Source: Ignavibacteriales bacterium (lineage in GTDB: Bacteria > Bacteroidota > Ignavibacteria > UBA10030). Taken from it: a DNA stretch of 64,000 nt. Shown piece after piece: positions 40,450-58,732 of this stretch. The notes under the pieces were generated by a model, which worked only from the letters and a program-made list of their open reading frames with translations, had not been told where the DNA came from and did not search any database. Each line of letters starts with the position of its first letter. The first letter of the stretch is position 1. The stretch is from contig JAPLFQ010000030.1 of the NCBI GenBank assembly GCA_026390595.1, positions 124,001 through 188,000 on the forward strand, in the 5' to 3' direction. The position numbers and the translations under genes were made by a program.

Positions 40450-41490
40450 TTACTTCAAGAGGGTCATTTTTCGAGAGAAGGAGCGATCCGCGGTCCGCAA
40501 TCGGTACATGTAGGTTCCCGAGGGGACCGGCGAGCCGTTGTCGTCGAGGCCGTTCCAGACTTCGGAGTGCCGGCCGGGGTTCATGCGCCGATCGCCAAGG
40601 AGCGTGCGCACGCGAATTCCCATGAGATCATAGATCTCGAGAGTTACCGATGAGGTCGCTGGCACATCAAACTGAATCGTCGTCCTGGGGTTGAAGGGAT
40701 TGGGATAATTCTGGCTGAGAACGTACTGATTCGGCGTGGCTCCGTCCTCCCTCTCAACTGCCGTGACTGTGAACGCCCAGCTCGTCGTGGTCTGCAAACC
40801 GCCCGGATCCGACACAACGCATACAACCGTATGGGGATCGCCGTACTTGCCGCCAAAGGTCGTTGTGTACAGACTGTCTTTCCCCGACTGAACGATGTTC
40901 CCATCCCGCTTCCATGCAAATGTCAACGTGTCGCCATCCGGGTCGGAGGCACGCACCTTGAATGTGATGGGCAGATTAAGCGCAACGACACTCACCACGG
41001 GAGTTCCGGAGATAATAACCGGGGCGCGATTCAACTTCTGCACGACGACCTTTCCGTTCACCGTCGCCGCGAGCGGTGAGCCTTCGTTGAATCTGAAGTC
41101 GGTGAAATTCAGTGCGCTCGTCCCGGCATTCTTCAACTGCGCCTTCAGCACGAGAAGTGTCCCCGATCCAACGATCGGAGTGATGCCCGCGGAAGCAACA
41201 CGCAACTGACCCGGAAACGTGGTATTCGTGACAGTTGTGAAGTTCGTCGACAGCGTTCCGGATCCGTCGACGCCGGTCACATTGACGATCGCCGTATCGT
41301 AGGTAAGCACAAACTGAAATGCCGTGACACCCAGGCCGGTGACCGATCCCACCGTGAGCGGGATGTTCATGGAAGCACCCGATTGCCCCCCGGTCGCAGG
41401 CAGACTCAACGATACCTGAGCGTTGGAAACAGATATCCCCGCCAGGAGAAGAAGTACTGCGGTTCGTGTTATGTGGGATGCTTTTTTCAT
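40450..41490 (-). CDS. Secreted single-cohesin protein with Ig-like domain and T9SS tail
   Basis: A 346-aa protein. A signal peptide (about 1-24, ending V-S-N-A-Q) is followed by a cohesin-like beta-sandwich at about 25-150 (A-F-Q-F-V-L-T-Y-D-T-A-I-V-N-V, G-S-G-T-L-L-V-L-K-A-Q-L-K), an Ig-like domain at about 155-250 (D-P-D-G-D-T-L-T-F-A-W), and a Por tail from about 265 (S-Q-N-Y-P-N-P-F-N-P) ending R-K-M-T-L-L-K. Cohesins bind dockerin calcium-loop domains, and dockerins are present in the giant gene immediately upstream. The Met at 41490 was used as the first credible start. The gene lies 29 bases after the stop of the giant and may be co-transcribed with it. Confidence 0.82.
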   Translation of the reverse strand: MKKASHITRTAVLLLLAGISVSNAQVSLSLPATGGQSGASMNIPLTVGSVTGLGVTAFQFVLTYDTAIVNVTGVDGSGTLSTNFTTVTNTTFPGQLRVASAGITPIVGSGTLLVLKAQLKNAGTSALNFTDFRFNEGSPLAATVNGKVVVQKLNRAPVIISGTPVVSVVALNLPITFKVRASDPDGDTLTFAWKRDGNIVQSGKDSLYTTTFGGKYGDPHTVVCVVSDPGGLQTTTSWAFTVTAVEREDGATPNQYVLSQNYPNPFNPRTTIQFDVPATSSVTLEIYDLMGIRVRTLLGDRRMNPGRHSEVWNGLDDNGSPVPSGTYMYRLRTADRSFSRKMTLLK

Positions 41491-41519: not shown

Positions 41520-44500
41520 CTAGCGAACGAGCATCATTTTCTGAGTTGATACAAACGACCGAGCCACCATTCGGCAAATATAGATACCGGATGACACCAA
41601 TTCCCCTGTATCACTCCGGCCATCCCAGGTCGTATTGAATGAGCCTGGCTCAAGCACGGCATCCACGAGCGTTCGGATTCTCTGTCCCTGCAGGTTGTAG
41701 ATGACGATCTGTACGGGGCTCTTCTCCGGCACCCTGAACTTCACCGTCGTCCCCGGATTGAACGGGTTCGGATAGTTCTGCTCGAGTGCAAATGAAACCG
41801 GAACGGAGCTGACCTCCAGAGCGCTCAGAGTCTGAGTTCTTTCATTCAACCACCCGTTGCCTGCCAGCGTCACCCGTTCTGCGCCGCCCGCGAATTTCAG
41901 CGTAACAGTCGCAAGCTGGCGCGTTGATATGGGAGTCGTCCCGATTGCAACAATTCTGAGTTCGCGGTCAGTCGAGTTATGAATCATCTGCCAACCCTCG
42001 GGGAGTGTCGGGAGAACTCCATTAACCGGGCACGTTGTGAGATCACCCTGAATATTCCACTGGACGGCGAATATGTCGGCCTTCGAGGATGAAACGTTCA
42101 GCGAGATGTGAACTTCCGCAGGAGTCTTCGGGTCACGGGTCAAAGACCAGGCGAGCGTTGCCGTCGAGCTCTGCGCATCCGCAGAAGCCGGAGGCGCTAT
42201 CCCGGGGGGAGCAGTCTGGATCGAGAACGTCGGGATGACGATCAATCCTGCCGCCGCTTGCAGAATCAACGACGCATCAAACGGGGTGATCGTACCGTCA
42301 CGCGACGCATCGGCTGCGAAGAGAGCGCCAGGATCGGTCAGAACAATCAATCCAACGACATGGCGAAGGACAAGGGATGCATCGTTCGCCGTGATGAGCC
42401 CATCGCCGTCCACGTCTCCGCGCGACCGGTTGCGTGTCACGGTCACCAAGGCGCTTGTGCTGTCACTTTGGACCCCGTCACTAACCATCACTTTCACAAG
42501 ATACGACTGGTTTGCCTGCTGCGAAGTCGCGGCCCATCGGAGGAGACCGGCATTGGTCAACGTCAGGCCGGGGGGACCGCTGACGAGTGTGAAGAGCACC
42601 GCATCCCCCTCGGGATCAGTTGCAGCGTAGGTGAATCGGAGCGTGTCACGCGTGTCGCGAATCGTCGTATCGCGCAAAACACTTGTGAAAACCGGTGGAC
42701 GGTTCACGCGCCGCACGGTCACCGTGGCAGACGAAACGATAAGGAATTGTCCGTCGAATGCAGACACGACAATGGAATAGGATCCCGCCTGACCGAAGCT
42801 TGGGCGCCACTTGAAGAGCCCCGTGGCTCCATCGATCGAAGCGCCTGACGGCGAGCTGATGAGGCTGAATGCGATCGTCTCGCCAAGATCTTTCGGGTCG
42901 GCGCCGAATGTGAATTCGAGGCTTTGCCCTTCAGCGATCGTCGTATCAGCCAGAGATTTGACAAAGACAGGGGGCTTCGTGGGAACGCCAAGCGTCAATC
43001 GCTGCCCCTGAATCGTAACAGTGCCGAGAGAAAACGCAGCCCGTACCACGTACGTGGTATCACCCTGACCGGATGTGACCATTTCATTGCCGAAGTAACT
43101 CGAACCGCCTCCCTGCAGCGACCAGGGGTTGCTTGCGCCCCCAGCTTCGAGCCGATGAATGAGACGGAGATCCTGTGTGCGGACAGATTGGAGACCAGGA
43201 TCGGGCGACTGGACTTCGAGGTCGTAACGCTGGTTCGAGGCAAATCCATTGGCCCCCGTGGTGACGACCCACGAGAAGGAAGGATAGTTGCCGATGCGGA
43301 TCCCACTTCCCCCGTCCAACGGAAGCCCGGATGACCCGCCCGGATTCCCATCCTGCTGCTCCACATCGATCGTCGTTGCTATGATAGCGGGGTATGATGT
43401 CCCAAATACTATGGACAGTGGCCGATACGTCGAGGATGTCCCCACGGGGAATTCGTACCTCCCATTCGGATAGACAGTCGGACTGCCAGCTCCGCCTACA
43501 ACGTTGTGTCTGACTCTCCCCTGCACATAGCTCAAAGACGGCTTAACAACCCCGGATCGATCAAATCCCTGACCGCCCGATGTCTGGGAAAGAACGAGCG
43601 CGTTGTCTGACGTCTGCAGGATACCTTTGACGAAGAACAGAACCGCACTCGGGCCAAACGCGAGGTTACCTCCCTGAAGCACAAAACCGGCCGGGTTGTT
43701 GAGGCGGAGGTTGATGGACGATGTTCCTCCCGTCAGCAGGAGCCCCGACGGCGGGACGGTGATACTCTGCTTCGCGGTGCCTGCGAGATCTATCAGAGAT
43801 GCTCTGCCGGTTGAACTGAGGAACGCGCCGGCTCTCACGATCACGTTTCCGCTGATCTCGAACGTCCGCGATGCCAGCGACCCGGCGGGGCCAAGAGCCA
43901 ATCCCCCCCCCTCAGAGTTGATCGTAACATCCCCAACCGAGCGATTCGCGTGCAGCACAAATACTGTTGGCTTGCTGTCCGCCGAAGAAAGGACGGACAA
44001 GCTCAGGATTCGGATTCCGTTGCCGGCCTGGAAGTCCCGGTCCGTGCTCGCGACGGTCGTGCCTGTGCGGTACACAAGATTGTATGACGAAACCGCAGGA
44101 GCCCCGGAACGGGTCCCCGTTGTATCGAAACTGCCACCGCCCATGAGGATGGTTCCGCCGTTGCCAACAGTTACTTCGTTCTGGCCTTTGACCAGCGCTC
44201 CAGCCTCGAGGAACAGGGTGTCGCGAATACTCATGCTGCGGCCAAGGATCACGCCCGCTGAACCTGCGGAAAGGCTGGGATTGTTGATTCTCAATCGCTG
44301 AACTATCGTGCCCTGGACCGGCACTTCGCTCGAAGTTGTGAGACTACCGTTCGCGGGATCGATGAGATAGGAGATATTGACACTGTTACCGAAAGCAGGT
44401 GCTGAGCTCAGGAGCGCCCCTGATTGCCGCCTGATAATCGTTGAGCCGTCTGCCATCTGAAGGGCTCCCTGATCAACGGTGAGGGCTCCCCTTGCCAGGT

Positions 44501-47500
44501 CGAGCGATCGGGAAACCACGAATGCCTGTGCGGGTGAGCTGCTTGAGACGCCAATGCTGTTGTTGATCTTCAGATTCGGAAACACAAGGCCGTTGCCGGG
44601 GGAGAATCGCTGCAACGCTCCTCCTTCAAAACGGACTTCTCCTGAGGTCGCGAGTATGGAACCTGAAGTCCTGTTGAATGAGCGGACACCCACATTGGAG
44701 CCAGTACCAAGCAACACAAGATGATTGGCTCCGAGGTTGATGTCCCCTGCCATCTGCGTCAGCATTTCGCTGATGGTAAATGTGCGCGGGGAACCGCTCG
44801 TGGAAACAAAACTGAGCGTCCCGGTTCCGCCCTCCGGATTGTAGGTCAGTTCCTCGATGCTGAAATCGGAGTTCGCGATGATGGTCGAAGATTGACTGAC
44901 GATGACGAGTTTGCCGCCTGCCGTGCCGTTCGACGTGCCATCGGAAAGTATCGCTGCTGCGTTTCCTGTGCCATCAGATGACAGCGTGATGGCTGAGCCT
45001 GCCAACGTGAGGTCGTTGCCAGCAGATCCGAGGCGAACAACCGGTATCCCGGCAGACGCCGGTGTTCCGATATCGAGATTGCCGTTGATCCTGCCCGGGG
45101 CGGCCAATATGATGTTTGACAGAACACGGAGATTCGGCAGTGCGGTGCCGATCGAGTTGCCGATGGTCAAAGAGGAATTCGCTCTATTCATAACCAGGTA
45201 TCCGCCGGCTGAGTTGTATCCGGCTGCACCTGAATTCTGCACGAAATTGCCCGATGTAGAGAGAGCCAAATTGAATATGTCAAAATTGAAGAGGCCGGAG
45301 CTAAACACCACACCAGCTTGCACTTCCAGGTTGCTGGCAAGCGTGAAGCTTGAACCATTGAGTGTCACAGCCCCGGCGATAATCTGCTCAGAGGCGAGCT
45401 TGCTTGACGAACTCGTCGACGAGCCCATACCGAGGACCAAAGAACTTCCGGGATTTGTCGTCAGGTTGCCAGCGAGGCCTTGGATGTTCTTGATGGTGCA
45501 GGAAGTGGAAGAGATGGTAGTATTCCCCAGGAGAGCAGGCTCCGCCGATGCCGTGCTTCCAGCAATCGTCACATTCGATCCTGACACGACGATCTGGTCT
45601 TGCACGTCTGAGGTGGTGAGAATTCCCCTCACGGTGTGGGTTGCGTTTGAGGCGCTCAAGAGTAGCGATGCGACTCCCGGACCCGATCCGAGCCGGACTG
45701 CAGCCGAGGGACCAATCGTCAGTGTGCCGTCAAAATTATAGTCTGCCGTTCCTGGAATCTGAACATAGTATCGTGTGCCGGTCGTGATGTCGCTGTCGCC
45801 GTCAAGGTTCGGGTCGGCATTCACGTTGACAAGCCAGTTGCGCACGCTCGGGGTCAGGTCCACTCCGGGCGCAATAGTCGAGTTAAGCGTTCCGGTATAC
45901 TCGAGGTCGTAGGAAATGCCGAGAGAATTGAAAGCACCCCCCGACGCGATGATGCCCGGCGAGGCGACAACATTGCGCACCACACGGGCAGTGGCAGCCG
46001 ACGGAGAAATGTCGCCGGATGTAATCTCGAACGCTCCTGACGTCATGTCAAGCAGCCGGGAAAAACGAATGGTCCCGCTCCCCCGCACCCTGTTGCCAGA
46101 ACCAACATCAATACGGAGAGAAGTATAGAGGCCCGGCCCCGTCGAGTTGAGAACAGCCCCCGGGATTGATCTCCCCCCCTGAGCAGTTGCTGCGCCGCCA
46201 AATACCAATGATCCATTTTCGCCGGTCATGATCCCGGCGTTGTTGACGGTTGCATTGTCTCCGTTGATGATCAGGTCGCTAGACGAGAGATTCAGAGTTG
46301 TGCCAGAACTTACTGTAAGGAGATGCGACACGCGGGCCGACTGAACGAGCGAAACTGAGCTTCCTGGATTGTTGAAAATAATGTCGTAGACCTGGAACGA
46401 TGATCCCGGGGCAAACGTGAGCGGACGCAGTCCCCCTATTTCGATTGTGGATCCGTTGTTCGCGTTGAATTCTCCGCCGCTCCTCGTGAAGTCCCCGGTG
46501 ACTTTCAGGCTGCCGCCTGCACCTGAGCCGATGACGGAAGTTCCGCCGGTCTGAGCAAACCCTCCTGTTTGAAGCGTCGTTCCGTCCGCGAGCGTGAGGA
46601 GCCCATTGCTGAGTGACACAGACTGATTCACGAGCGAGTTGACCCCGATGTTGAGCGTCCCCCCTGTCACAAGAAGGTTGTCGATGTTGAAACCATTACT
46701 GAGAAGCTGTGTGGTTCCCCCGATGCCATCGCAGGTGAGGCTGCTGAATGTACCGCCATTGAATGTGGCAATGCCCAATCCATGGCTCATGAGAAGCGTG
46801 CCGATGGTTCCTGTGATCAACCCACCGCTCGTGTTGTGGTTCACAGTAAGCGGAGTAGTCGTTCCTCCGTTGCCATCATTCAGGAACGGCGGCCCGACAA
46901 TCCGGGCGAGTGTAAGCGTGTTGGTTCCAAGCGCAATTCTCTTCCCCGATGTGTTCTCCAGAAGGAGACTGACAGTCGTGGGGCCATTGATGTTGATAAC
47001 CCCGCCCGAGGCTCCCGTGTTCGAGAGTTTGCCCCGGATCTGCCCGGAGATGTTCATTGTTCCGGTCGAGACATTCAGCGCGTGGACAGTGAAGTTCCTG
47101 TTTCCTGAGATCGCACCCGGCGTGTTCGGCGCGGCGATGCCCTGGTCAAATGACAGTGTGCCGCCGCCATCGTTCTCGACGATGACCGAGAAATATGCGT
47201 CACCCGTTTGGGCGCCGATTGTGTTCGTTGCCAGCGTAACCGAAGAGCCGAAACGAATCGTCCCGCCCGACGCGTTGCGGGCAAGCGCTGTCCCCGAGCC
47301 CGTCCCAAATGTGAGGCTTGAGAGAGGCAACCCGGCCGCATTCCAGGCAGCACTCCATGTGACGGGAGCGTTGAACTGGAGGGTACCACTCCCCTGGTTC
47401 TCGATGGAAGAGAGAGAATAGTCGGCGAACACAGCCCCCCCTCCAACGACGAGCGAAACCGTGCCGTTGAACGTAGCAGAGCCTGTACCGGTGAGGAGAA

Positions 47501-48464
47501 TGTCAGACACGGTCGCCGGAGCAGTCGATGAGCCTATACTTCCCAGAGAAATGGCGTTTTCAAAAACCGCCGAGCCGGAGGAAACAGTGATCGCCTTGTT
47601 CGGCACGAGGCCAACGATGCCACCGGTGGGGATGATAACCCCGGCAAATGACATCGGAGCCGTGAATGTCACTCCTGACCCCGCGGTCTTGTTGACAAGC
47701 AGAACCCCAGAGCCATAATTCCCGTAGCGCGACTCCGGACCGGCCGTGAATGTCCCGTCCCCAAAATAACTAAGGCTGAGGTTCGCCTGTTTCGCAGGCA
47801 CCTTGTCTGTGAAGGTTGAAGTGCCGTAGAGGGCTATCGCGGAATTGTTCTTCAGGCGGACCAGCGAGCTATCGGAGAATCCAAGGTCGCCTGCTTTGAG
47901 GATGATGCCCGATGTCGGAGTGCCGCTCGTATGTTGTGCAGCGAGGTTGAGGTATTCAGTACCCGTGGCGGAGGTAATCCGAACGGTTCCACCGGGGATA
48001 TTGACAATGAAGCTTGGGATGTAATCGTCTGCCGCGTGGTTGATCAACGCGCCGTTTGCCGCGAGAACAGACCCGGCGTCGACCTGAATTCTGATTTCGT
48101 TGTTCGTTCCGAGAGAGCGAAGTTCAATGGTCAATCCGGACGTCAGGCGGGGATACTTTGCCGAGCTGATATCGATGTCGGCATTGTCTGTAATAATAGA
48201 GGGCGACCCGTCCGTGTCAACACCATCGCCTGCGTAGATGCCCGCCAGGATGACCAGCGTGCCGTTGTTAGCGATAGTGCCCAGTGCTGCATGGATGGTG
48301 GATTTTGGACCTGTCCCGGCAGGAGAATTCGCGGGATTGGCGCCTGTATAGACGTCAGAGCCGTTTGCGGCGTCGACATATACGGTGGTCAGCTGGGCGA
48401 AGGAACGGCCGCCGGCGATCACGCACAGGAGAAAGAATACGATATGTCGGAAGGATGCTGTCAT
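41520..48464 (-). CDS. Giant secreted beta-helix adhesin-like protein with dockerin-like domain and T9SS tail
   Basis: A 2,314-aa protein with a signal peptide (about 1-23) and an N-terminal segment Y-V-D-A-A-N-G-S-D-x-Y-T-G-A-N, typical of right-handed beta-helix proteins. Residues to about 1,600 are glycine/serine/threonine-rich repeats. A module at about 1,620-1,830 beginning G-F-D-R-S-G-V recurs in the giant at 51038. Two Ig-like domains follow (about 1,830-2,010), then a dockerin-like domain at about 2,015-2,077 (D-V-D-G-D-G-L-I-T-A-N-D-A and D-A-S-R-D-G-T-I-T-P-F-D-A), a beta-rich module that may be a degenerate cohesin, and the Por tail (E-Q-N-Y-P-N-P-F-N-P) ending Q-K-M-M-L-V-R. It is probably surface-bound or released and used for adhesion or matrix building. 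Confidence 0.88.
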   Translation of the reverse strand: MTASFRHIVFFLLCVIAGGRSFAQLTTVYVDAANGSDVYTGANPANSPAGTGPKSTIHAALGTIANNGTLVILAGIYAGDGVDTDGSPSIITDNADIDISSAKYPRLTSGLTIELRSLGTNNEIRIQVDAGSVLAANGALINHAADDYIPSFIVNIPGGTVRITSATGTEYLNLAAQHTSGTPTSGIILKAGDLGFSDSSLVRLKNNSAIALYGTSTFTDKVPAKQANLSLSYFGDGTFTAGPESRYGNYGSGVLLVNKTAGSGVTFTAPMSFAGVIIPTGGIVGLVPNKAITVSSGSAVFENAISLGSIGSSTAPATVSDILLTGTGSATFNGTVSLVVGGGAVFADYSLSSIENQGSGTLQFNAPVTWSAAWNAAGLPLSSLTFGTGSGTALARNASGGTIRFGSSVTLATNTIGAQTGDAYFSVIVENDGGGTLSFDQGIAAPNTPGAISGNRNFTVHALNVSTGTMNISGQIRGKLSNTGASGGVININGPTTVSLLLENTSGKRIALGTNTLTLARIVGPPFLNDGNGGTTTPLTVNHNTSGGLITGTIGTLLMSHGLGIATFNGGTFSSLTCDGIGGTTQLLSNGFNIDNLLVTGGTLNIGVNSLVNQSVSLSNGLLTLADGTTLQTGGFAQTGGTSVIGSGAGGSLKVTGDFTRSGGEFNANNGSTIEIGGLRPLTFAPGSSFQVYDIIFNNPGSSVSLVQSARVSHLLTVSSGTTLNLSSSDLIINGDNATVNNAGIMTGENGSLVFGGAATAQGGRSIPGAVLNSTGPGLYTSLRIDVGSGNRVRGSGTIRFSRLLDMTSGAFEITSGDISPSAATARVVRNVVASPGIIASGGAFNSLGISYDLEYTGTLNSTIAPGVDLTPSVRNWLVNVNADPNLDGDSDITTGTRYYVQIPGTADYNFDGTLTIGPSAAVRLGSGPGVASLLLSASNATHTVRGILTTSDVQDQIVVSGSNVTIAGSTASAEPALLGNTTISSTSCTIKNIQGLAGNLTTNPGSSLVLGMGSSTSSSSKLASEQIIAGAVTLNGSSFTLASNLEVQAGVVFSSGLFNFDIFNLALSTSGNFVQNSGAAGYNSAGGYLVMNRANSSLTIGNSIGTALPNLRVLSNIILAAPGRINGNLDIGTPASAGIPVVRLGSAGNDLTLAGSAITLSSDGTGNAAAILSDGTSNGTAGGKLVIVSQSSTIIANSDFSIEELTYNPEGGTGTLSFVSTSGSPRTFTISEMLTQMAGDINLGANHLVLLGTGSNVGVRSFNRTSGSILATSGEVRFEGGALQRFSPGNGLVFPNLKINNSIGVSSSSPAQAFVVSRSLDLARGALTVDQGALQMADGSTIIRRQSGALLSSAPAFGNSVNISYLIDPANGSLTTSSEVPVQGTIVQRLRINNPSLSAGSAGVILGRSMSIRDTLFLEAGALVKGQNEVTVGNGGTILMGGGSFDTTGTRSGAPAVSSYNLVYRTGTTVASTDRDFQAGNGIRILSLSVLSSADSKPTVFVLHANRSVGDVTINSEGGGLALGPAGSLASRTFEISGNVIVRAGAFLSSTGRASLIDLAGTAKQSITVPPSGLLLTGGTSSINLRLNNPAGFVLQGGNLAFGPSAVLFFVKGILQTSDNALVLSQTSGGQGFDRSGVVKPSLSYVQGRVRHNVVGGAGSPTVYPNGRYEFPVGTSSTYRPLSIVFGTSYPAIIATTIDVEQQDGNPGGSSGLPLDGGSGIRIGNYPSFSWVVTTGANGFASNQRYDLEVQSPDPGLQSVRTQDLRLIHRLEAGGASNPWSLQGGGSSYFGNEMVTSGQGDTTYVVRAAFSLGTVTIQGQRLTLGVPTKPPVFVKSLADTTIAEGQSLEFTFGADPKDLGETIAFSLISSPSGASIDGATGLFKWRPSFGQAGSYSIVVSAFDGQFLIVSSATVTVRRVNRPPVFTSVLRDTTIRDTRDTLRFTYAATDPEGDAVLFTLVSGPPGLTLTNAGLLRWAATSQQANQSYLVKVMVSDGVQSDSTSALVTVTRNRSRGDVDGDGLITANDASLVLRHVVGLIVLTDPGALFAADASRDGTITPFDASLILQAAAGLIVIPTFSIQTAPPGIAPPASADAQSSTATLAWSLTRDPKTPAEVHISLNVSSSKADIFAVQWNIQGDLTTCPVNGVLPTLPEGWQMIHNSTDRELRIVAIGTTPISTRQLATVTLKFAGGAERVTLAGNGWLNERTQTLSALEVSSVPVSFALEQNYPNPFNPGTTVKFRVPEKSPVQIVIYNLQGQRIRTLVDAVLEPGSFNTTWDGRSDTGELVSSGIYICRMVARSFVSTQKMMLVR

Positions 48465-48606: not shown

Positions 48607-50952
48607 TTACTTCACCAGTGTCATTTTCTTCGATGCGTGGAAGTCATTGGCGTTGACGCGGTAGAGATACACGCCGGACGGCGCTACATTGCCGTTATCG
48701 TCGCGACCATCCCACATCATCGTATGACGTCCGGCACTGACTGTTTCACCGGCCAGAAGTGTGCGAACACGGACGCCCAGGACGTTGTAGACTTCCAGCG
48801 TCACAGGGGCTTCCTTCGGAAGATCATACCGAATGGTCGTCGATGGATTGAACGGGTTCGGGTAGTTCTGTCCGAGCGCAAACTCCTTCGGGATACCATC
48901 GGGATCAGTTGCAACATCCGTGATGGTGAAGCTCCACGTTGCGCTTGTCGAGTCGCCGAGGCCAGCTGCAGTCTTGTAGATGGCGACGACGTTCTTGGCA
49001 GCGCCGTGTGCATCGGTGAATCTGGTGCTGTACGTGCTGTCCGTGCCCGGGCCCTTCACAACGACGTTGTTGACTTTCCAGGTATACTGCAGCACTCCGC
49101 CATCGACATCTTTGCCGCGGGCGGTAAATGCTACGATGTTATTCTGGGAAGCAGTCGTCAACGTTGCAGGCGTCTTTGCAACAAACACCGGCTTGTGATT
49201 GACCGTGATCACAGCTTTTGCCGTATCTGTGAGTGAACCGTCACTGACTACTGCGGTAATCGCACTCAGCCTCGGCGATGCAGCGGTCGGCGTAAATGCG
49301 AAGACACCAGCAGACGTTATCGTCGCTCCGGCCGGTGCACTGACCAGGGTGTACGTGAGCGTCGTGTTGGCATCCGGATCGGTCGCTGTGTAGGTAAATG
49401 CCAACGCAACACCTTCCGTTGCAGTGGCGTCTGCCAGCTTGTTGACAAACGAAGGTTTCCGATTCGATGCAGTGACTGTGATGGGTACTGTAAGACTATC
49501 CATTCCACCCACAGGGTCAGCAACATAGAACATCACGTTGTAGACTCCGGGTGTGGTAGAGAGTGATGGATTCCAGCTGAAGGTCTTCGTTGTCGCGTTG
49601 AACGTCGCGCGTGCCGGCAGAGTCCCAGTCGTGTAGGTCAGGGCATCGCCTGCGTCCGCATCCGTTGCGAGAACGCTGAAGCTGAGTGTATCAACCTGTG
49701 CAACTGACTTCGCTGCAATGACAGTGAACTTCGGAACGTTATCCTGATCCACCGAGCCATTTGTGAATGTCACTGACAGATTTGATCCAACGCCATCGGA
49801 TACCTGGGATTGGGCTGCATTGAAGCCAACCACAGACGAGCCGCCAGCATACGTGAACACCACGTCCATCAGCTTTCCGGTACCGATATTCAGGAAAGAA
49901 GTCCCAAACCACGCAAACGACAACACGCCATTGGAGGCGTTCGTGACAAAACCGCTGCCGGCGAAATTGGAGATTTGCTTGAACGTCAGCTTCGTTTGAT
50001 CATAAGTGACTTTCAGCGAAATTGATCCAATGTTGTTCATTTGCACGACGCTTACCGGGACTGAAACATCCTTGCCTGGAACGCCGCGTACCGAACCCAA
50101 CGTTAATCCAACCGGAGGAGCCGGAGTCTTCACGATTTTGCCGCTGACATACGTGATGGATACGTTATTGCCAACGGAATCGGTGACCTGGCTCGTTCCC
50201 TGGATCGTGAGATCCGTAGAGTCCTTTTTCAATGTGAACTTAAGATCAGTCAGCTTGCCGGAGTTGAGGCTGAATGGTGTTGTGCTGAACCATGACAGCG
50301 CCACGATACCTGCAGAGGGTGTTCCCGCGTTGAACGGGAGCGCCGGATTCGTCAGGCCGACAAACGTGACTTTTGACGTATCATATGCGATCCTGAGCGA
50401 AATAGACCCAAGACCTTTCAGGTTTGCACCGGTAACCGGGACAAAGATATCACCCGGATCACCGACAACCCTGGCCAAACTGATCGTTGATGGGAGTCCG
50501 GAGACCGACCCATTTGTATACGTTGCTGTAAGATTGGTACCGAGGGAATCCGTGATACTGCTCGGAGTCGTACTGGTGAACGTCAGCGCACTCGTCCCGC
50601 TCTTATATGTAAAGAGGAGGTTGAGAAGCGTGCCGCTACCAATATTCAGAGCAGGGCTGACGTTGAACCAGGAGATGCTCACAGTGCCGTTGGTATTAGC
50701 CGTTGCGGCCGGTGTTCCGTTGAAAATACCAAAGGTGGGCTGATTCGCAGTCCCGGTGTATGTCAGAACGTTCTTGTCGAAGCTAATTGTCAAGCTAAAG
50801 GAGCCAACGTGGTTGAACCCCGTCACCTGAACAGGTAGCGCAAGCGCAGTCCCGTTAGCGGCCGTCTGAGTAGGTAAGCTCAATGTAACCTGACCCATCG
50901 CCAATCCCACGAATACCAACAGTAACAATCCTACTGTCGTAAGTTTTCGCAT
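48607..50952 (-). CDS. Secreted protein with three tandem cohesin-like modules, Ig-like domains and T9SS tail
   Basis: A 781-aa protein: signal peptide (1-20), then three cohesin-like modules at about 21-150, 155-275 and 282-402. Each has the pattern V-P-V ... I-S-L-x-I-x-Y-D-x-x-x-V-x-F, A-x-x-S-W-F and G-x-L-x-x-L-x-F-x-x-K. Three Ig/cadherin-like repeats follow at about 405-680 (A-T-D-A-D-A-G-D-A-L-T-Y, T-A-T-D-P-D-A-N-T-T-L-T-Y, F-T-A-R-G-K-D-V-D-G-G). The chain ends with a Por tail from about 697 (G-Q-N-Y-P-N-P-F-N-P; terminal K-K-M-T-L-V-K). Multiple cohesins on one chain are what makes a scaffoldin; the flanking giants carry dockerin-like domains. No carbohydrate-binding or catalytic domain was seen. 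Confidence 0.85.
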   Translation of the reverse strand: MRKLTTVGLLLLVFVGLAMGQVTLSLPTQTAANGTALALPVQVTGFNHVGSFSLTISFDKNVLTYTGTANQPTFGIFNGTPAATANTNGTVSISWFNVSPALNIGSGTLLNLLFTYKSGTSALTFTSTTPSSITDSLGTNLTATYTNGSVSGLPSTISLARVVGDPGDIFVPVTGANLKGLGSISLRIAYDTSKVTFVGLTNPALPFNAGTPSAGIVALSWFSTTPFSLNSGKLTDLKFTLKKDSTDLTIQGTSQVTDSVGNNVSITYVSGKIVKTPAPPVGLTLGSVRGVPGKDVSVPVSVVQMNNIGSISLKVTYDQTKLTFKQISNFAGSGFVTNASNGVLSFAWFGTSFLNIGTGKLMDVVFTYAGGSSVVGFNAAQSQVSDGVGSNLSVTFTNGSVDQDNVPKFTVIAAKSVAQVDTLSFSVLATDADAGDALTYTTGTLPARATFNATTKTFSWNPSLSTTPGVYNVMFYVADPVGGMDSLTVPITVTASNRKPSFVNKLADATATEGVALAFTYTATDPDANTTLTYTLVSAPAGATITSAGVFAFTPTAASPRLSAITAVVSDGSLTDTAKAVITVNHKPVFVAKTPATLTTASQNNIVAFTARGKDVDGGVLQYTWKVNNVVVKGPGTDSTYSTRFTDAHGAAKNVVAIYKTAAGLGDSTSATWSFTITDVATDPDGIPKEFALGQNYPNPFNPSTTIRYDLPKEAPVTLEVYNVLGVRVRTLLAGETVSAGRHTMMWDGRDDNGNVAPSGVYLYRVNANDFHASKKMTLVK

Positions 50953-51037: not shown

Positions 51038-54000
51038 TTACTTCAGAAGGACCATTCGACGGACCTCTTTGAAGGTCTGCTTTCCAGCATCAACAGTGAT
51101 GTGGTAGAGATACACACCGCTGGACATCTTGGAAGCATCCCAGCGAATCTTGTATGAACCGGCATTCTGTTGATCATTCACCAGCTTGTCAACAACCTGA
51201 CCGAGCATGTTGTAGACCACCAATGTTACGTGGCCGGCAACCGGCAGGTCGTACTGGATCGTGGTGGAAGGATTGAACGGGTTCGGATAGTTCTGGCCGA
51301 TTGCGAATGCAGTCGGGATCGAACCATCAACCGCAGGAACTTCCAGACCAATACCGCTGAGCACTGTGCCCTTGGCATCGGTGACCTGGCTGTTCGGATC
51401 AAGCGTCAAGCTGAAATCTTTAATGCTGGCTGTCGGCTTGAAGCGGAGTGTTACGACCGCGTCGTTATCCTTCAGGTTCATTGCATTTTCTGCGTTGAAC
51501 CATGCAACGGCGACCATACCATTGTTCGCTGCGCTGACCATACCCTCTGGACCACGGACACCAACGAAGGTGGCGGATTCAACCGGGTATTGGAACGCAA
51601 GCGACATGGAGCCGAAGCTCGCTGCAGCTTTCACTCGAACTGGAACTTCGAACGCATCTGAGCTATTGACACGCAGAGCTTTGCCTGCTTCAGCAACAAC
51701 CGATGCTTGACCATCGACCTTTGCGAAGTATGCGCCACCTGCCTGTGCATCACTGTTGACATCGCCAACCGCGATTGCAACCACGTTGTTGACGAAGTCA
51801 GCGTTTGTCAGAGTCTTGCTGGTTACTGTCGGCACGAAGATCCAGTCGCCCTTGGCGAAGGATGTTACGGAACCGACGTAGCGCAACATGATCTGCAACG
51901 CATCAGCGGAGTTGACATTGCCGTCGTTGTTCACGTCGGCAGCCAACAGATTGTTTGCACCGAGCGGATACGTCGTGGCATCGACTGAGTACAACGCGGC
52001 CTTCAAAGCATCAGCAGCGTTCGTGTACACTGTCGGATGTCCACCGGTCTTCGCGAAGCTGAATGTATAGGTACCAGAGTTCAGCTTGTTAGGATCGGTT
52101 GTATAGGCACCGTTGGTGTTCGTCGTAACGACCTGAGGCGCGATGCCACCAGTAATCGTCACTGAAACGCCATTAACCGGTACCGTACCGCCGTTGTATG
52201 TCACAGAACCGGTGACGTTGACCTGCAGAACCTGCACTAGGATCTGTGCGGATACTGTGTCGGCGCCGCCCTGGTTGTCTGTAACACGGGTCTTGATCAC
52301 GTAGATAGCTGTTTGCTGTGAAGCTGCTACCCAGAAGAACGAACCAGCGACAGAATCGACCTTTGCGCCACCCGGGTATTGAATTCCATAGTACCGGAGG
52401 GCGTCGCCGTTGGAATCAGCCGCTGCATAGGTGAACCGCAGGGTGTCACCAACGTTGAGGGTCCCGTCTGACATCTTTGCTGTGAACTTCGGTGCAGCGT
52501 TCTTGTAGTTGCGAGTAAGAAGTGTCGTTGCATCTTTTGACAGTGTACCATTGCTTGCTCTCACCGTAATCGTGTCCACATACGTCCCGGGAGCTGCAAA
52601 TGGGACATAATAGTTCAGCACGCCGGCAGCAATCGTCGCAGCTGCAGGGGCTTTCACGATCGAGTATGTGAGGGACAAACCATCAGAGTCAGCAGCTGCA
52701 TACGCAAAGTTGTACGCCTTGCCCATGTCAGCAGTGACAGTGGCTGGCGGAACGTTTGCAGTCGCATAGTAAGGAACGCGCTTTGCCTTCACAACGATAA
52801 CCTTGAAGGAGCGTACAACGTCCGCGATGCCGTCATTCACTTTCACAGAGAATGTGAAACCAGCGGATGATGTATCAGTGACTGCCGGTGTCCAGCTGAA
52901 GGCACCAGTCAATGAATCGACTGCTGCTGCAACTGACGGAACCGGAGAGGCACTGACGAACCAGTATTTCAGTTTCGTTGACTTGGAAGGACCAACACGA
53001 TCGGTATCAGATGATGCACCGACGAGTGTCAGAGCCAGCGATTGCCGTGCGGCAATTGATGTATCCCTGATTGCAGCCAGCGTCGGCGCTACAGGCACAT
53101 TTGCAACCACGAGTGTGTCCGATTTGTCCGTGAAGCTGGACGTGCTGCTCGAACTTGTTCCACGAATCGTGATGTACTTTGTGCCAGCATCGAATTGACC
53201 AGCCTTCCACTTAAAGACACCAGTCGTCGTATTGAACGTATAGCCGGTGATGTTCGTCGACTGGACGCTCAACGTTGCAGACTGGCCGATATCGGGATCC
53301 GTCGCAGTGTAGGTGTACTGCAGCGTGTCACCTTCGTTCATGTTGTTCTTGGTTGCGGTGACCGTAACGCCATTGACGACCTTGGTGATCGCCACTGCGG
53401 GCGGCTTGTCCATCTGACTATAAGTGAATCTGGATCCTTGTCCGGTGATACCACCCGTTGCATCGACAACTTTCACAACCGGCCAGTTCGACGCGATCGT
53501 TGAGTTATCATAGGTGTTATCTGCACCCTGGAGGACCCACTGGTTGTTCACGCTGCCAGAGTCACGTCGTACGAACCGGATGTTCTGAATTCCATCCGAA
53601 GCGTAGTCTGAGTAACCCTGAGCCTGCGCCTCGAGATCATACTTGTATGAAGGCGCAAGAGCGATGTCTGTCTTGGCGTACCAGTAGAACGGCGGGTAGT
53701 TCGTGATCAGCTTTGTTCCCGACGTAAGCGGGATACCGTTCGTCCCATCTGGTGTCACATCAAAGTGAGCGACTGTCAGATTGATCGAACTTGCCGGCGT
53801 GTTCTTGAAGTAGAAGCTCATCGGGCGATAGTATGGTGCAGTTGCCGATGAACCCACCGGGAAGTCGACCTTACTGATATCAATCGATTGTGTTGATGTA
53901 TTGTCAATGAACTTCGTGACGCTGCCTACAACGTGACTAGCGTCGCCAGTCGCAACACCCGAGCGGTCAAAGCCCTGGGTCGGCTGTCCGCCAGACCTGG

Positions 54001-57000
54001 ATTGCTTCAACGTTACAACCTTGCTCCCTGTGACCAACAGCCCCTTCACAAAGTAAAGGGTTGCCGAATTGGTCGCGAAATCAAGGTTCCCACCAGACAG
54101 CGTGAGGGTGTTCGAGGAGGCAGTCTTACTCAACGCGACCTGGATAGCGGAAGGCACTGACCAAGCAGCATTCAGATTAAGGGCAGTATTAACACCAGCG
54201 AACGTCAACTTCTTAGCTGCGCCGGTATTCGTGAAGAATCCGTTATTTTCGGTCTGCGTGACGTCCCCTTGGACTGTCACTGCGTTTCCGTTCATGTTGA
54301 AGTTACCGCCATCAAAGGTCACAGTGCCGCCGATCGTCAGGATCTTGTCGAGTACGACTGTACCTGAAGCAAAGGTCAGATTACCAGTCGCTGACGCATA
54401 GGCAGTGCTGCCCGAATTGAGGGCTCCCAACTCACGGATCGTGGTTGCCGTGGCACCGTCATACTTGATATTGACGCCAGTGCCGAGGACCAAAGCCGTG
54501 GAGTTGATAACTGTTGTACCATTCTGTCCGAGAGCAATCGTGCTGTTGTTGCCCATCGTGATGTTGTTCGTGGAGGTGTTGTTCAGAACGCCATATAATG
54601 TCAACGTTCCGCTAACAGACACCGCCTTCGGCAAAGTCACGGTAGGCGTGGTGGTTCCGCTCTTTCCAACAGAGAAGTTCGTCACTGACGACTTCAACTC
54701 ATAGAAATTTGCGGCTGTTGCAATGCCGACGCCCTGATAGCTAACACTCACGGCACCAGCGAATGTCGGCGCCGCGGACAGCGTAGCACCGTCAGCATCG
54801 CGCTGTACAGTGCAACCATCACCCAGCGTCAATTTGCCAGCAGAGTTTGTCAACGTACCAGAATTCAGCCAGAGCTTCTTGTTCACGGTAAACGCAGTGG
54901 ATGCCGAGAGGTTGCTGTTCGTTGCGAGCTTAAGATTGTCAACCGCGAAGCCAGTTCCAAGCGTCTCTACTCCGCTGCCACCCCAGATCAGGTAACCAGC
55001 ACCCATTGTCCACGCGCCAGCGGTATACGTAAACGTCGCAGTGCCCGATGTCGCAAGGGTGTTGTCACCGATCGCGATCGTCCCCGCCGTTTGTGTCAAG
55101 GCTGTCGCGACGGTAAGGGTACGAACGTTCGCGGATCCGGTCTTGTCGGATGCCAGAGTGAACGTCCCTGACGTATTGACCTCGAGCTTCTGTATAGTCG
55201 GGCTCGAAGACAGCGTCAGCGTGGGGGCCGAACCCTTGAAGATCAGCGACACAGTTGTGAAGGTGGTAGCTGTGGCCGGCTTGTAGGTGTAAGTATTGCC
55301 AGAGATTGTAAGATCGCCTGCGCTCAATGTCAAATTACCAGAGGTGTGCGTAAGAGTACCTGTGACCTCCATTGAGTTGGCGATCGTCGCTGTGCTACTT
55401 GAGCCCGGTGCTAACTCGAGATTTGCAATCGAGAATGTAGTGCCGGGTATCAGGGTACTTGCGGCTCCCATTACCAGTGAGCCCGTGCCCGTGACAGTAC
55501 TAAGGGTGCCGTTTCTGGTGAAACCACCCTTCTCCGTGAGCTTGTTTGCACCAAGAGCCAGAGTAGCGTCAGTGAGGGTCACCAAGCCGTTGGCAGTAAT
55601 ATTGCTGCCAAGCGTGAACGTGCCCTTGCTAAGCGTTACGGTGCTAGTGACCGTGCCACCCGTATAGGTCAACGTTCCATTCGTAAGCGTGATAGCGCCC
55701 GTATGGCTCGATGAGTTGCTGCCATTAATCGTGACAGTCACGGCTGGCGTTACTGTTGTGTTACCAACGTTAATGTTCCCAGTCAGAGCGGCATCTGTCG
55801 CGTTCATGGAAATTGTTGCTTGCGCGCCACTCTTGACGGATGGACCTGAAAACGATCCGATCGCTCCGCCATTCGCCAGGTTCTGAACGTTGATATCACC
55901 ATTGATTGCCTTGAGGTTGGTTGACGAGAACGTGTAGCCGTCGCTGGCAGGTTCGAAAGAGATCCCTGCAAACGTTGCGGCATCCGACGATCCAGTCGAG
56001 CCGTTGATCGCGCAACTATTGCCCTGCTCCACAACGTACTGCCCATTGGCCGTAAGATGGAACAAGCCGACAGTTCCGGCGATTGCGTGAGTCTTGTTGC
56101 TGCCCGTCAAGTAGAAAATCTTCGTGTTATCATTCAGGCCCAACGATGCGCCTGAAGATACCGTCAGAGTTCCTTTGAGGGTGACGTCCTGGGCCGGCAG
56201 GAGGACCTGGTTGACTTTGTTGCTGCCTGGTGCGCTTAAGGTCAGATCACCATTGATGGTGATCCCGCTGGCGCTGGCAATTTCCAACCGAGTCTCGTTC
56301 GGAGTTGTCGTCGAAGTCTGAGTCGTTGAGAACGTCAGGTTGTTGACGTACGCGAGACTCAGCTCTGCTCCTGTCGAACCGGCAGTATTCAGAGTGTTCG
56401 TTGTCGTCAACGAGCCTGTATACTGCAAATCATAGTTTTGAGGAGAGTTAGTATTCCACGGCGTGCCGGCGGTATAATAAACGCCCTTGTCACTACCGGA
56501 GCCCGTGGTAATATCACGAATGACCTTCGCAGAGGTTCCTGTTGGGCCAAACGAGCCTGCCATAATCTTGATATTGCCTGAAGTGAGCGTCAGAATTCCA
56601 TTAAACTTCGCATCATCAGTGCCGGTGGCATTAGCCTGGACATCAGTGCCATTGCCAACATCAACTGTTATATACGAGTAGACGCCCGTGCCCCGGAATG
56701 TTTGACCAGTAACTGGGGCCGTTCCGCCATTGGAGACGGTCGTTGCACCACCAAAGATAACACCACCACCGCCGCTCGCAGTATATGAGCCGCTATTGAC
56801 CATGCCTGCGTTGTTTGACTTGAGGATGATGTTCAAGGTGCCTAGTGCAACATTCGTATTGGCGTTGATCGTCACATTACCTTGGGCGCGAATTGACTGA
56901 CCCAGAGTAACTGTGCCGGAAGTGTTCGTGAAGGTAAGGATACCAACTGTGAACAGTGTTCCGCCATTGACCGACTGAGAAGAAGAGCCAGTGAAGGAAA

Positions 57001-58732
57001 TCGTGGAAGTTGCTGCCGCCGTAAAGGTTCCAACCGTCCGGTTGAAATCACCCTTTACATCCAAGGTTCCGTTCAATGTGACAGTGCTGCTGCTGTTCGT
57101 CTGCGAGAAACCGCCAGTCGTAAGCGTCTGACCGGCGTTGATGGTCAATCCGCATGTCGAAGAGCCACTCAGCGTTGTCGAGCCAGAGGTGACCACTAGA
57201 TTAGTACCGGATGCAACAGTGAACGTACCGGCCGTAATCGTCAAGCTGTTCATCGACGCAATACCGTTGGCCGTCGTGCTACCCGCGATGGTAAGGGTCG
57301 GGATCGACGTGGCATTCAGAGTCGTACCAGCTTTGGACACGGCGACCGTCCCGTTTCCTGTAATAGTGCCCAACGATTGTGTGCCAGATGTCGCCGTTAG
57401 CGTCAGCGTGTTTGATCCAAGTGCGATCGTTCCGCTGTTAGAAACGGCGCCACCAACTGTCGTGTTTCCTGTCATGTTAACAGTCGCGCTACTTACGTTT
57501 GTAAGCGAGCTACGCAACGTGCCACCCGCGACATTCACCGTGCCCGCAGCGGCGTTGTTGTTAACATTAAGATTGACTGTGCCACCATAAACGGCAGTAG
57601 CGGTAGCTGTCACAGTACCCAGAGTAAGAGTACCACCATTGTTGTAAGCTGTCACCACGACTGTGGCAACGGTATCATAAGAAACAAGCCCAATGGAACT
57701 AAATGATATCGTTCCAGAGGAGGAATTCTCGATCATCCGCTGATATGTGATTTGAGGATAGACAACGCTGTTCAACGTCGTCAAGGATCCCCAGCTGCTG
57801 GTCCATGTCGCACCAGCATTCACATAGATCTTGCCCGCGGCAGAGTTCACGATAGTACCGATATCGTCACCATCAACACCGGCTGACGCCAGTTTCTGGT
57901 TCAGAGCACCATTGAATGTGAGAGTACCCGTACCGGCATTCACTATGTCGCTAGCTCCCAACGTCACGGTGCCGCTAAAAGTCGCACCGTAATTAGTGGT
58001 TACCGAAACACCACCGGCCGCAGTGATAGCATAGGGCATGGTCACTGTTCCAGAGGTTTTGCTAAACGTCAAAGTACCTGAGCCATACGAACCGTAATTG
58101 GCTTCGGGTCCAGCAGTTACATCGCCGTCACCGTTGTACACTAACGTGAGGTTTGTGCCCTTCTTCGGGGCAGCGTTTGACAAGCTTGAGGTTCCATACA
58201 TCGTAAGTGTCTTGCCGCTGGCCAAAACAAAATAATTCGAATTGCCGATATTCATCGTCGAATTGTTCGTGCTGTTGCCGAGCTGCATGTTTTGCGAAAG
58301 AGTCAAGGACTCACTGCTTGATACAGTGGTAATATTGAGCGTGCCTCCTGAGACTTCATAAATGAATCCGCTAGCGCCTGTCACCGAGACCACGCCATTG
58401 GAATTAAGAGTGGCGAGCTGGATTGTCAACGTGCTGCCAGCAACCATACCAGGATAAGACGTCTGTGTCTTGATATCGACGCTTTCTGAATATGTGCCCG
58501 CATACAGGACAATCGTGCCACCGTTCGCAACGGCTTTCAAGCCTCCATCAATCGTTGCTTTGGGACCGGTGCCTGCCGGCGAGTTGGTTTGATTGGCTCC
58601 AGTGTAGGTGTCGGAGCCGTTCGTCACATCGACATACACCGTCGACAACTGCTGAGCGAACACGCTTACCGAGGCCAGCACAAGCAACACAACAACCATC
58701 GCGCCAAGCTTAAAAAGGTTCTTTGTGTTCAT
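51038..58732 (-). CDS. Giant secreted beta-helix adhesin-like protein with dockerin-like and cohesin-like domains and T9SS tail
   Basis: A 2,564-aa protein and the largest gene in the window. Order: signal peptide (1-27), a beta-helix opening with Y-V-D-V-T-N-G-S-D-x-Y-T-G-A-N, then Gly/Thr/Ser/Asn-rich repeats to about 1,570; a module shared with the other giant (about 1,578-1,775, G-F-D-R-S-G-V); Ig/cadherin-like domains (about 1,776-2,165); a CarboxypepD_reg-like domain (about 2,171-2,234); a dockerin-like domain (about 2,234-2,290, with D-V-N-N-D-G-N-V-N-S-A-D-A); a cohesin-like domain (about 2,335-2,470); and the Por tail (G-Q-N-Y-P-N-P-F-N-P, ending R-R-M-V-L-L-K). The ATG has ggaggaac upstream. 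Carrying both halves of a cohesin-dockerin pair, it could self-assemble. Confidence 0.9.
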   Translation of the reverse strand: MNTKNLFKLGAMVVVLLVLASVSVFAQQLSTVYVDVTNGSDTYTGANQTNSPAGTGPKATIDGGLKAVANGGTIVLYAGTYSESVDIKTQTSYPGMVAGSTLTIQLATLNSNGVVSVTGASGFIYEVSGGTLNITTVSSSESLTLSQNMQLGNSTNNSTMNIGNSNYFVLASGKTLTMYGTSSLSNAAPKKGTNLTLVYNGDGDVTAGPEANYGSYGSGTLTFSKTSGTVTMPYAITAAGGVSVTTNYGATFSGTVTLGASDIVNAGTGTLTFNGALNQKLASAGVDGDDIGTIVNSAAGKIYVNAGATWTSSWGSLTTLNSVVYPQITYQRMIENSSSGTISFSSIGLVSYDTVATVVVTAYNNGGTLTLGTVTATATAVYGGTVNLNVNNNAAAGTVNVAGGTLRSSLTNVSSATVNMTGNTTVGGAVSNSGTIALGSNTLTLTATSGTQSLGTITGNGTVAVSKAGTTLNATSIPTLTIAGSTTANGIASMNSLTITAGTFTVASGTNLVVTSGSTTLSGSSTCGLTINAGQTLTTGGFSQTNSSSTVTLNGTLDVKGDFNRTVGTFTAAATSTISFTGSSSQSVNGGTLFTVGILTFTNTSGTVTLGQSIRAQGNVTINANTNVALGTLNIILKSNNAGMVNSGSYTASGGGGVIFGGATTVSNGGTAPVTGQTFRGTGVYSYITVDVGNGTDVQANATGTDDAKFNGILTLTSGNIKIMAGSFGPTGTSAKVIRDITTGSGSDKGVYYTAGTPWNTNSPQNYDLQYTGSLTTTNTLNTAGSTGAELSLAYVNNLTFSTTQTSTTTPNETRLEIASASGITINGDLTLSAPGSNKVNQVLLPAQDVTLKGTLTVSSGASLGLNDNTKIFYLTGSNKTHAIAGTVGLFHLTANGQYVVEQGNSCAINGSTGSSDAATFAGISFEPASDGYTFSSTNLKAINGDINVQNLANGGAIGSFSGPSVKSGAQATISMNATDAALTGNINVGNTTVTPAVTVTINGSNSSSHTGAITLTNGTLTYTGGTVTSTVTLSKGTFTLGSNITANGLVTLTDATLALGANKLTEKGGFTRNGTLSTVTGTGSLVMGAASTLIPGTTFSIANLELAPGSSSTATIANSMEVTGTLTHTSGNLTLSAGDLTISGNTYTYKPATATTFTTVSLIFKGSAPTLTLSSSPTIQKLEVNTSGTFTLASDKTGSANVRTLTVATALTQTAGTIAIGDNTLATSGTATFTYTAGAWTMGAGYLIWGGSGVETLGTGFAVDNLKLATNSNLSASTAFTVNKKLWLNSGTLTNSAGKLTLGDGCTVQRDADGATLSAAPTFAGAVSVSYQGVGIATAANFYELKSSVTNFSVGKSGTTTPTVTLPKAVSVSGTLTLYGVLNNTSTNNITMGNNSTIALGQNGTTVINSTALVLGTGVNIKYDGATATTIRELGALNSGSTAYASATGNLTFASGTVVLDKILTIGGTVTFDGGNFNMNGNAVTVQGDVTQTENNGFFTNTGAAKKLTFAGVNTALNLNAAWSVPSAIQVALSKTASSNTLTLSGGNLDFATNSATLYFVKGLLVTGSKVVTLKQSRSGGQPTQGFDRSGVATGDASHVVGSVTKFIDNTSTQSIDISKVDFPVGSSATAPYYRPMSFYFKNTPASSINLTVAHFDVTPDGTNGIPLTSGTKLITNYPPFYWYAKTDIALAPSYKYDLEAQAQGYSDYASDGIQNIRFVRRDSGSVNNQWVLQGADNTYDNSTIASNWPVVKVVDATGGITGQGSRFTYSQMDKPPAVAITKVVNGVTVTATKNNMNEGDTLQYTYTATDPDIGQSATLSVQSTNITGYTFNTTTGVFKWKAGQFDAGTKYITIRGTSSSSTSSFTDKSDTLVVANVPVAPTLAAIRDTSIAARQSLALTLVGASSDTDRVGPSKSTKLKYWFVSASPVPSVAAAVDSLTGAFSWTPAVTDTSSAGFTFSVKVNDGIADVVRSFKVIVVKAKRVPYYATANVPPATVTADMGKAYNFAYAAADSDGLSLTYSIVKAPAAATIAAGVLNYYVPFAAPGTYVDTITVRASNGTLSKDATTLLTRNYKNAAPKFTAKMSDGTLNVGDTLRFTYAAADSNGDALRYYGIQYPGGAKVDSVAGSFFWVAASQQTAIYVIKTRVTDNQGGADTVSAQILVQVLQVNVTGSVTYNGGTVPVNGVSVTITGGIAPQVVTTNTNGAYTTDPNKLNSGTYTFSFAKTGGHPTVYTNAADALKAALYSVDATTYPLGANNLLAADVNNDGNVNSADALQIMLRYVGSVTSFAKGDWIFVPTVTSKTLTNADFVNNVVAIAVGDVNSDAQAGGAYFAKVDGQASVVAEAGKALRVNSSDAFEVPVRVKAAASFGSMSLAFQYPVESATFVGVRGPEGMVSAANNGMVAVAWFNAENAMNLKDNDAVVTLRFKPTASIKDFSLTLDPNSQVTDAKGTVLSGIGLEVPAVDGSIPTAFAIGQNYPNPFNPSTTIQYDLPVAGHVTLVVYNMLGQVVDKLVNDQQNAGSYKIRWDASKMSSGVYLYHITVDAGKQTFKEVRRMVLLK

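Follow-up and report, generated by a model that had tools for sequence, protein, structure and literature searches.

The contacts between cohesins and dockerins are very strong and have been studied mainly in cellulosomes, but they are not confined to them. A cohesin-dockerin gene pair, which we take to be AF2375/AF2376, is known from Archaeoglobus fulgidus. The cohesin and dockerin of this archaeon were found to bind each other and have been used for surface display (PMC9705933). In ANME archaea, non-cellulosomal dockerin and cohesin proteins with up to five cohesins have been described and were proposed to attach proteins to the outer cell layer (PMC9012536). As for the Bacteroidota and their relatives, three papers touch on these modules: in a study of a bacterium with T9SS cellulases, the absence of cohesins and dockerins was called consistent with other Bacteroidetes genomes (PMC5831590), the cellulases of Melioribacter roseus were described as having no dockerin or scaffoldin domains (PMC3534657), and dockerins were listed in some gut Bacteroidota (PMC10266427).

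In the present analysis, a locus in which cohesins and dockerins are found on proteins with T9SS tails was followed up in an Ignavibacteriales genome (GCA_026390595.1). The window is the whole stretch of 64,000 nucleotides that was analysed (contig JAPLFQ010000030.1, positions 124,001 to 188,000), and all coordinates without a locus label refer to it.

Organization of the locus and predicted export of its products

The locus comprises four consecutive minus-strand ORFs transcribed in the order g1, g2, g3 and g4 (Table 1), with intergenic gaps of 85, 142 and 29 nt as calculated from the coordinates. It is one two-gene unit, consisting of a giant and a cohesin partner, in two tandem copies: the giant g1 is followed by g2 with three cohesins, and the giant g3 by g4 with one. 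Promoter-like sites were more numerous in the window than in shuffles, without a clear pattern, and the number of terminator-like sites equalled that of the shuffles. The upstream neighbour (59634-61724) encodes many TPR repeats and an N-terminal half that is hydrophobic by eye, and the downstream neighbour (39031-40410) encodes a GAF-SpoIIE phosphatase; neither of them has a clear tie to the unit.

Proteins of the T9SS tail family cross the outer membrane and are kept at the surface by the tail. The type A sorting domain TIGR04183 was found over its curated cut-off at the C-terminus of 4/4 window proteins, so the four neighbouring genes with Por tails described in the sequence-only reading were recovered in full. 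Additionally, the genome encodes SprA (TIGR04189, 1116 bits), which is the evidence for the translocon, and 137 tail matches were counted in it at E <= 0.01; T9SS export of the window proteins is therefore plausible.

Table 1. Features of the four-gene locus, given as window positions.
Feature	Position	Strand	Description
g1	51038-58732	-	giant, 2564 aa: long body, dockerin, cohesin, T9SS tail
g1 dockerin	51869-52042	-	second calcium loop alone canonical
g1 cohesin	51314-51682	-	35.8 bits in HMM iterated from window seeds; missed by Pfam
g1 T9SS type A sorting domain	51041-51307	-	TIGR04183, 42.7 bits
g2	48607-50952	-	triple-cohesin partner, 781 aa; Ig-like modules and T9SS tail after cohesins
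g2 cohesin 1	50497-50892	-	Pfam and iterated HMM
g2 cohesin 2	50125-50490	-	Pfam and iterated HMM
g2 cohesin 3	49744-50112	-	Pfam and iterated HMM
g2 T9SS type A sorting domain	48610-48882	-	TIGR04183
g3	41520-48464	-	from likely ATG (ORF to 48536, TTG); giant: long body, He_PIG Ig domains, dockerin, cohesin, T9SS tail
g3 dockerin	42231-42422	-	two calcium loops; Dockerin_1
g3 cohesin	41805-42170	-	34.2 bits in HMM iterated from window seeds; fold predicted; missed by Pfam
g3 T9SS type A sorting domain	41523-41792	-	TIGR04183
g4	40450-41490	-	from likely ATG (ORF to 41577, TTG); single-cohesin partner, T9SS tail
g4 cohesin	41041-41418	-	Pfam 37.4 bits
g4 T9SS type A sorting domain	40453-40725	-	TIGR04183
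Promoter-like site upstream of g1	59185-59213	-	11/12 match; weak evidence only

Cohesin and dockerin modules

The Cohesin profile of Pfam (PF00963) matched g2 with 84.5 bits over three stretches (E 1e-23) and g4 at E 3.6e-9, in agreement with the one triple-module and the one single-module gene expected from the earlier reading. The cohesins of g1 and g3 gave no Pfam match, though both were found by an HMM iterated from window seeds, among which the g1 domain was included and the g3 domain was not; the g1 assignment thus comes from the iterated HMM, and that of g3 from both this HMM and its predicted fold. A cohesin had been noticed in the larger giant, which holds for g1, but not its restriction to that protein, since g3 also has a cohesin between dockerin and tail. 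The dockerin and cohesin HMMs built here gave no match in 933 reversed ORFs, so that the module matches exceed chance.

When compared with the PDB, the model of the g3 cohesin domain matched cohesins with Z up to 13.6 (2jh2). Further down its match list, or with poorer fit, there are also other Ig-like and integrin chains. For the AlphaFold model of the g2 triple module (pLDDT 75, pTM 0.44), the first structural match was a type II cohesin dyad, and one domain matched the type I cohesins 1aoh and 1ohz at an rmsd of 2.0 Å and a target TM of 0.80-0.81, with integrin rows scattered through the match list at a query TM near 0.2. Since Pfam scores and predicted-fold matches agree, the g2 modules are, by profile and predicted fold, cohesins, and the choice between cohesins and unrelated Ig-like sandwiches falls on the former, which match first.

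The g3 dockerin matched Dockerin_1 (PF00404) significantly (31.0 bits, E 2.9e-7, over cut-off), as had been anticipated for the giants, and it also matched 1ohz_B in the PDB (E 1.7e-4, phmmer), its predicted fold reaching Z 12.8 to the cellulosomal dockerin 4uyp_B. With two calcium loops and a profile match over cut-off, it is a type I dockerin. The g1 dockerin scored 19.8 bits in hmmscan, below the cut-off of 22.9, and 24.2 bits for the stretch in the genome search; it matches profile positions 30-52 only, as well as single repeats of PDB dockerins, and departs from the two calcium loops of a type I dockerin (PF00404) in that the first loop is missing. Calcium loops had been placed in both giants, at about 42235-42420 and 51868-52030, and these coordinates stand; g3 has both loops, and in g1 only the second loop was retained.

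Other dockerin and cohesin genes are found in the same genome. On contig C3, two adjoining T9SS genes (L005:5675-8788 and L005:8809-12024) carry two cohesins each, located behind a laminin-G domain in one gene and behind an NHL propeller in the other, and in the genome search the dockerin between the cohesins scored 30.9 bits in one gene, which is over cut-off, and 19.9 bits in the other, which is not. Elsewhere on this contig, a protein of 4226 aa (L003:6087-18764) adjoins a 314-aa cohesin protein (L003:18719-19660); the larger protein contains laminin-G, Big_1 and FG-GAP repeats, and its dockerin match stays below threshold at 13.6 bits. Contig C17 encodes a giant of 2584 aa (L006:1480-9234) that combines 18 Big_1 stretches with a T9SS tail and a dockerin of a different subtype, and no cohesin was detected near it by the HMM built here in the 12 kb fetched. 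This giant was rejected as an example of the same cassette, its dockerin scoring 9.1 bits in the HMM built here versus 36 in Pfam; the domain after the dockerin looks cohesin-like by eye and was not detected as a cohesin.

Conservation of the giant-partner gene pair

When 61 genomes, the window's own and 60 relatives, were searched for cohesins, one-cohesin giants were found to adjoin proteins with about three cohesins. In 20/20 loci picked for that look, the HMMs built here showed that the giant's cohesin is preceded by a dockerin and that a three-cohesin protein lies alongside; in one locus (L057), a single-cohesin gene sits between giant and three-cohesin partner. A named genome collection was also scanned with an alignment of 24 dockerin-cohesin segments, a query that holds no partner sequence, and 288/334 pattern matches were found to encode a relative, the best 80 of which correspond to 78 distinct loci. 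Among these best matches, a three-cohesin ORF lies within the next two ORFs of the giant in 69/78 loci, where a giant was counted as an ORF containing a single dockerin and, after it, a single cohesin, a partner as an ORF with exactly three cohesins, and ORFs were called greedily, without overlap, from 120 aa upwards. What is conserved in these loci is a two-gene unit of giant and three-cohesin partner. The gap between the two ORF frames ranged from -111 to +195 nt in 65 of the 69 loci, and in the other four a gene intervenes: L063 has a second giant there, and L081, L098 and L127 each have a gene with a single cohesin. Some giants are short or cut by contig ends, that of L087 having 473 aa.

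Nine loci lie outside the 69. Three end at contig ends (L116, L126 and L139), one has two cohesins and a contig end (L108) and another has two cohesins (L137). In L128 several dockerin-cohesin genes precede two cohesins, in L134 a giant with two dockerins precedes three cohesins, in L085 the giant's dockerin and cohesin lie in separate frames, followed by three cohesins, and in L089 the partner is fused to another dockerin-cohesin. The latter (L089:9891-13436, CCCDC) and L135:1458-3788 (CCCD) represent natural plug-socket fusions, in which a three-cohesin partner carries a dockerin. According to the record titles, the lineages include Bacteroidales, Ignavibacteria, Kryptoniota, Calditrichota, Cloacimonadota (L081 and L098), Neomarinimicrobiota, Zixibacteria and Latescibacterota, among others, and single labels may be wrong because most records are MAGs; one locus (L105) was recorded from Carboxylicivirga linearis strain FB218. 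Because the 78 loci were kept as the best matches to a single family, they are not representative of dockerins in general.

The tails are kept together with the pair, since a T9SS tail was found at E <= 0.01 on 35/35 sampled giants of the 69 and on 23/29 sampled partners of the 58 with an intact end. In 3/29 sampled partners, Dockerin_1 was detected within the last 110 residues, so that the scaffold itself would be able to dock elsewhere.

In the 61 genomes, matches at E <= 0.001 were tallied by hand as both modules in 34, neither in 17, dockerin only in 6 and cohesin only in 4, a co-occurrence with Fisher p 6e-7 in a test that ignores relatedness. A cohesin match was located within 6 kb of 47/90 dockerin matches and a dockerin match within 6 kb of 114/150 cohesin matches (150 of 155 were entered), pairs inside one gene being included in these counts, and 28/40 dockerin-bearing genomes have a linked dockerin-cohesin pair. 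Many dockerins of this order are therefore found outside such pairs, given that 43/90 have no cohesin match within 6 kb.

A putative docking mechanism

Our favoured reading, to which a probability of roughly 0.65 is assigned, is that giant surface proteins are clustered by a docking system which is delivered by T9SS and is not cellulosomal. Docking of the giants to the partner is suggested by their modules, the gene pairing and its conservation, and the assembly by cohesin-dockerin contacts, already proposed from the sequence, is strengthened by the conserved pair of giant and partner and by structure prediction. From the domains, predicted folds, gene pairing and tails that were found, a mode of binding, a stoichiometry, a surface location and a role may be proposed. 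All four parts would be exported through the outer membrane by T9SS and retained at the surface by their tails, where the calcium-bound dockerin of a giant would plug into a cohesin of the partner. As g2 has three cohesins and g4 one, the former would gather up to three giants and the latter one, so that long surface proteins would become clustered. The cohesin of the giant itself would then bind the dockerin of a neighbouring giant, extending the array, or alternatively its own dockerin, capping it.

The AlphaFold model of the g3 dockerin and cohesin as a single chain (pLDDT 89.6, pTM 0.85) was built with 69 aligned relatives that are 17-30% identical to this stretch of g3. Because this pTM was reached although the linker between the two domains is of low confidence (pLDDT 54-58), the model indicates that the g3 dockerin is predicted to touch the g3 cohesin. 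The pTM of 0.44 for the three g2 cohesins is no clean control, as the pLDDT of that model (75) is also lower. Such a single-chain prediction fits a contact within the chain as well as one between neighbouring chains. It could accordingly be proposed that the dockerin folds onto the adjoining cohesin of the same chain as an intramolecular clamp that stiffens the stalk by the sorting tail, the partner cohesins binding other dockerins or nothing. The adjacency of dockerin and cohesin in one chain in nearly all giants, as well as their placement together in the g3 model, would suit such a clamp. However, the prediction cannot separate cis from trans, and a clamp explains neither the three-cohesin gene after the giant in 69/78 loci nor a dockerin that is much more conserved than the cohesin adjoining it, so that this alternative is considered rather unlikely.

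The mean pairwise identity over the 69 pairs was in fact 0.66 for the dockerin, a value raised to some degree because the loci were found by dockerin pattern, versus 0.25 for the cohesin of the giant; for cohesins 1, 2 and 3 of the partner it was 0.36, 0.36 and 0.28. If a plug has to fit several sockets, the stronger constraint would be expected on the plug. The residues presumed to make contact differ from those of cellulosomal dockerins. In the consensus of the 69 loci, positions 11-12 and 45-46 read Ala-Tyr and positions 18-19 and 52-53 read Leu-Gln, with both halves alike, the numbering being counted from the first column of the consensus and read off it, not from a structural alignment. 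In the C. thermocellum dockerin, the residues of the two binding modes are 11, 12, 18, 19 and 45, 46, 52, 53 (PMC4728124). The half-to-half identity of the dockerin was 0.57 in 66/69 loci according to a rough motif script, and a residue-pair regex in this script fitted only 3/69; neither figure carries weight in the argument. The g3 dockerin departs from the consensus at 3/8 presumed contact positions, with Asn, Arg and Pro for Tyr, Gln and Ala, in addition to Phe for Tyr; its specificity may therefore differ from that of the family.

A broader form of the favoured docking system is put forward tentatively, and the odds are against it: an undescribed, FCB-wide surface apparatus of giant T9SS proteins, in which the terminal dockerin of one giant would bind the cohesin of the next to form self-extending arrays, and the three-cohesin protein would nucleate or branch them. 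If true, this cohesin-dockerin system would be non-enzymatic and have a fixed gene order over several phyla; the body of its giant would be exchangeable, being a beta-helix in the widespread giants examined and unrelated in the window, and its docking end would be kept.

Bodies of the giants and the question of enzymes

No glycoside hydrolase or carbohydrate-binding module was found over the Pfam cut-off in the four window proteins, which upholds the absence stated in the sequence-only reading. A dockerin match at E <= 1 was obtained for seven proteins of the window's genome, and for five of these it exceeded the cut-off. The seven are g1, g3, a beta-propeller, a laminin-G and a DUF1565 protein and two Ig-repeat giants, and in none of them did a catalytic family of glycoside hydrolases or lyases exceed its cut-off. 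With its three cohesins, g2 has the form of a multi-cohesin scaffoldin as in cellulosomes, whereas dockerins on carbohydrate-active enzymes were not found among these proteins. The propeller protein (L005:8809-12024) does pass the cut-offs of SGL (59.0 bits), Phytase-like (38.2) and Arylesterase (25.2); these were read as propeller cross-matches because NHL repeats score 145.8 bits on the same protein, overlapping them. Glyco_hydro2_C5 reached 41.8 bits (cut-off 32) on an Ig-repeat giant and is a C-terminal, non-catalytic domain lying over Big_1 repeats, and Pectinesterase (24.5 < 27) and Sialidase N (23.4 < 26) remained under cut-off on dockerin proteins.

Beta_helix bodies (right-handed) were found in 2/2 widespread giants scanned with Pfam, L062 (178 bits) and L105 (86.9 bits), and seven more giants of the order align with the L062 body, which has the same sequence as L045, at 53-81% identity. 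Beta-helix folds include lyases, so that the widespread giants might have enzyme activity. For the window giants, a beta-helix body was considered and rejected, as no homology was detected when five window-type bodies were compared with eight order-type bodies by profile (P 0.069), and no clear rung period emerged from autocorrelation. In a same-family genome, a second giant beside the unit (L031:9643-15933) is 29.5% identical over 2082 body columns and has no dockerin or cohesin by the HMMs built here, which suggests that the docking end can be lost or gained. In the partner at L062:6660-9626, the cohesins are separated by Big_2 modules and followed by HYDIN/ASH-like Ig modules (103.5 bits).

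These results bear on the possibility of a cellulosome-like complex, in which the partner would be a scaffoldin for dockerin-bearing enzymes encoded elsewhere, or the beta-helix giants would be polysaccharide lyases. The lyases among beta-helix folds and the enzyme-named matches of the dockerin propeller protein would fit such a complex, as would Candidatus Stygibacter, reported to have dockerin-bearing hydrolases and peptidases together with a tail-bearing scaffoldin (PMC8542988). However, the gene paired with the partner encodes a giant, none of the seven dockerin proteins matched in this genome has a catalytic family of this kind over cut-off, and the propeller matches overlap the stronger NHL repeats; a cellulosome-like complex is thus judged improbable. 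The cargo looks like giant non-catalytic proteins, and an adhesive, matrix or surface-coat role is consequently regarded as the likely one for the favoured docking system, considering the size of the giants and the lack of clear enzyme domains. That the cohesin-fold and calcium-loop modules are structural spacers which have lost their binding and merely stiffen long surface proteins, as the divergence of the cohesins (25-36% identity), the missing first calcium loop of g1 and the 43/90 dockerins with no nearby cohesin match might suggest, is the least probable view, since the dockerin is 66% identical over 69 loci, including the positions that contact the cohesin in C. thermocellum (PMC4728124).

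Comparison with known systems

In the PDB, the best match of the profile of the giants' cohesin is the Archaeoglobus fulgidus cohesin 2xdh (E 6.5e-14). Like the A. fulgidus pair, the window unit is non-cellulosomal; unlike it, the A. fulgidus pair belongs to an archaeon, and we know of no T9SS, giant partner or three-cohesin protein in that system. In ANME archaea, the dockerins are found on transporter binding proteins and S-layer proteins, and the section consulted of that study describes no conserved gene pair of a giant and a three-cohesin protein (PMC9012536). Candidatus Stygibacter, which belongs to the Cloacimonadota, a label also present among the loci described here, is similar in having a scaffoldin with a C-terminal surface-attachment domain; unlike the unit, it was reported with dockerins on hydrolases and peptidases and with a scaffoldin of 3755 aa that contains CBMs (PMC8542988). 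The clostridial cellulosome (type I) shares its module folds with the window proteins (1ohz, 1aoh and others), whereas the latter have no glycoside hydrolase or CBM over cut-off, carry T9SS tails and show other residues at the presumed contact positions.

In the literature on cohesins and dockerins, T9SS, Bacteroidota and Ignavibacteria, consisting mostly of non-subscription texts seen in part, no description of a gene pair of giant and three-cohesin protein was found. Since non-cellulosomal cohesins and dockerins are already known, what appears to be new here is the pairing of a T9SS giant with its partner gene. A pair fixed across many FCB lineages would mean that the same lock known from the cellulosome serves another purpose, the organization of giant T9SS proteins.
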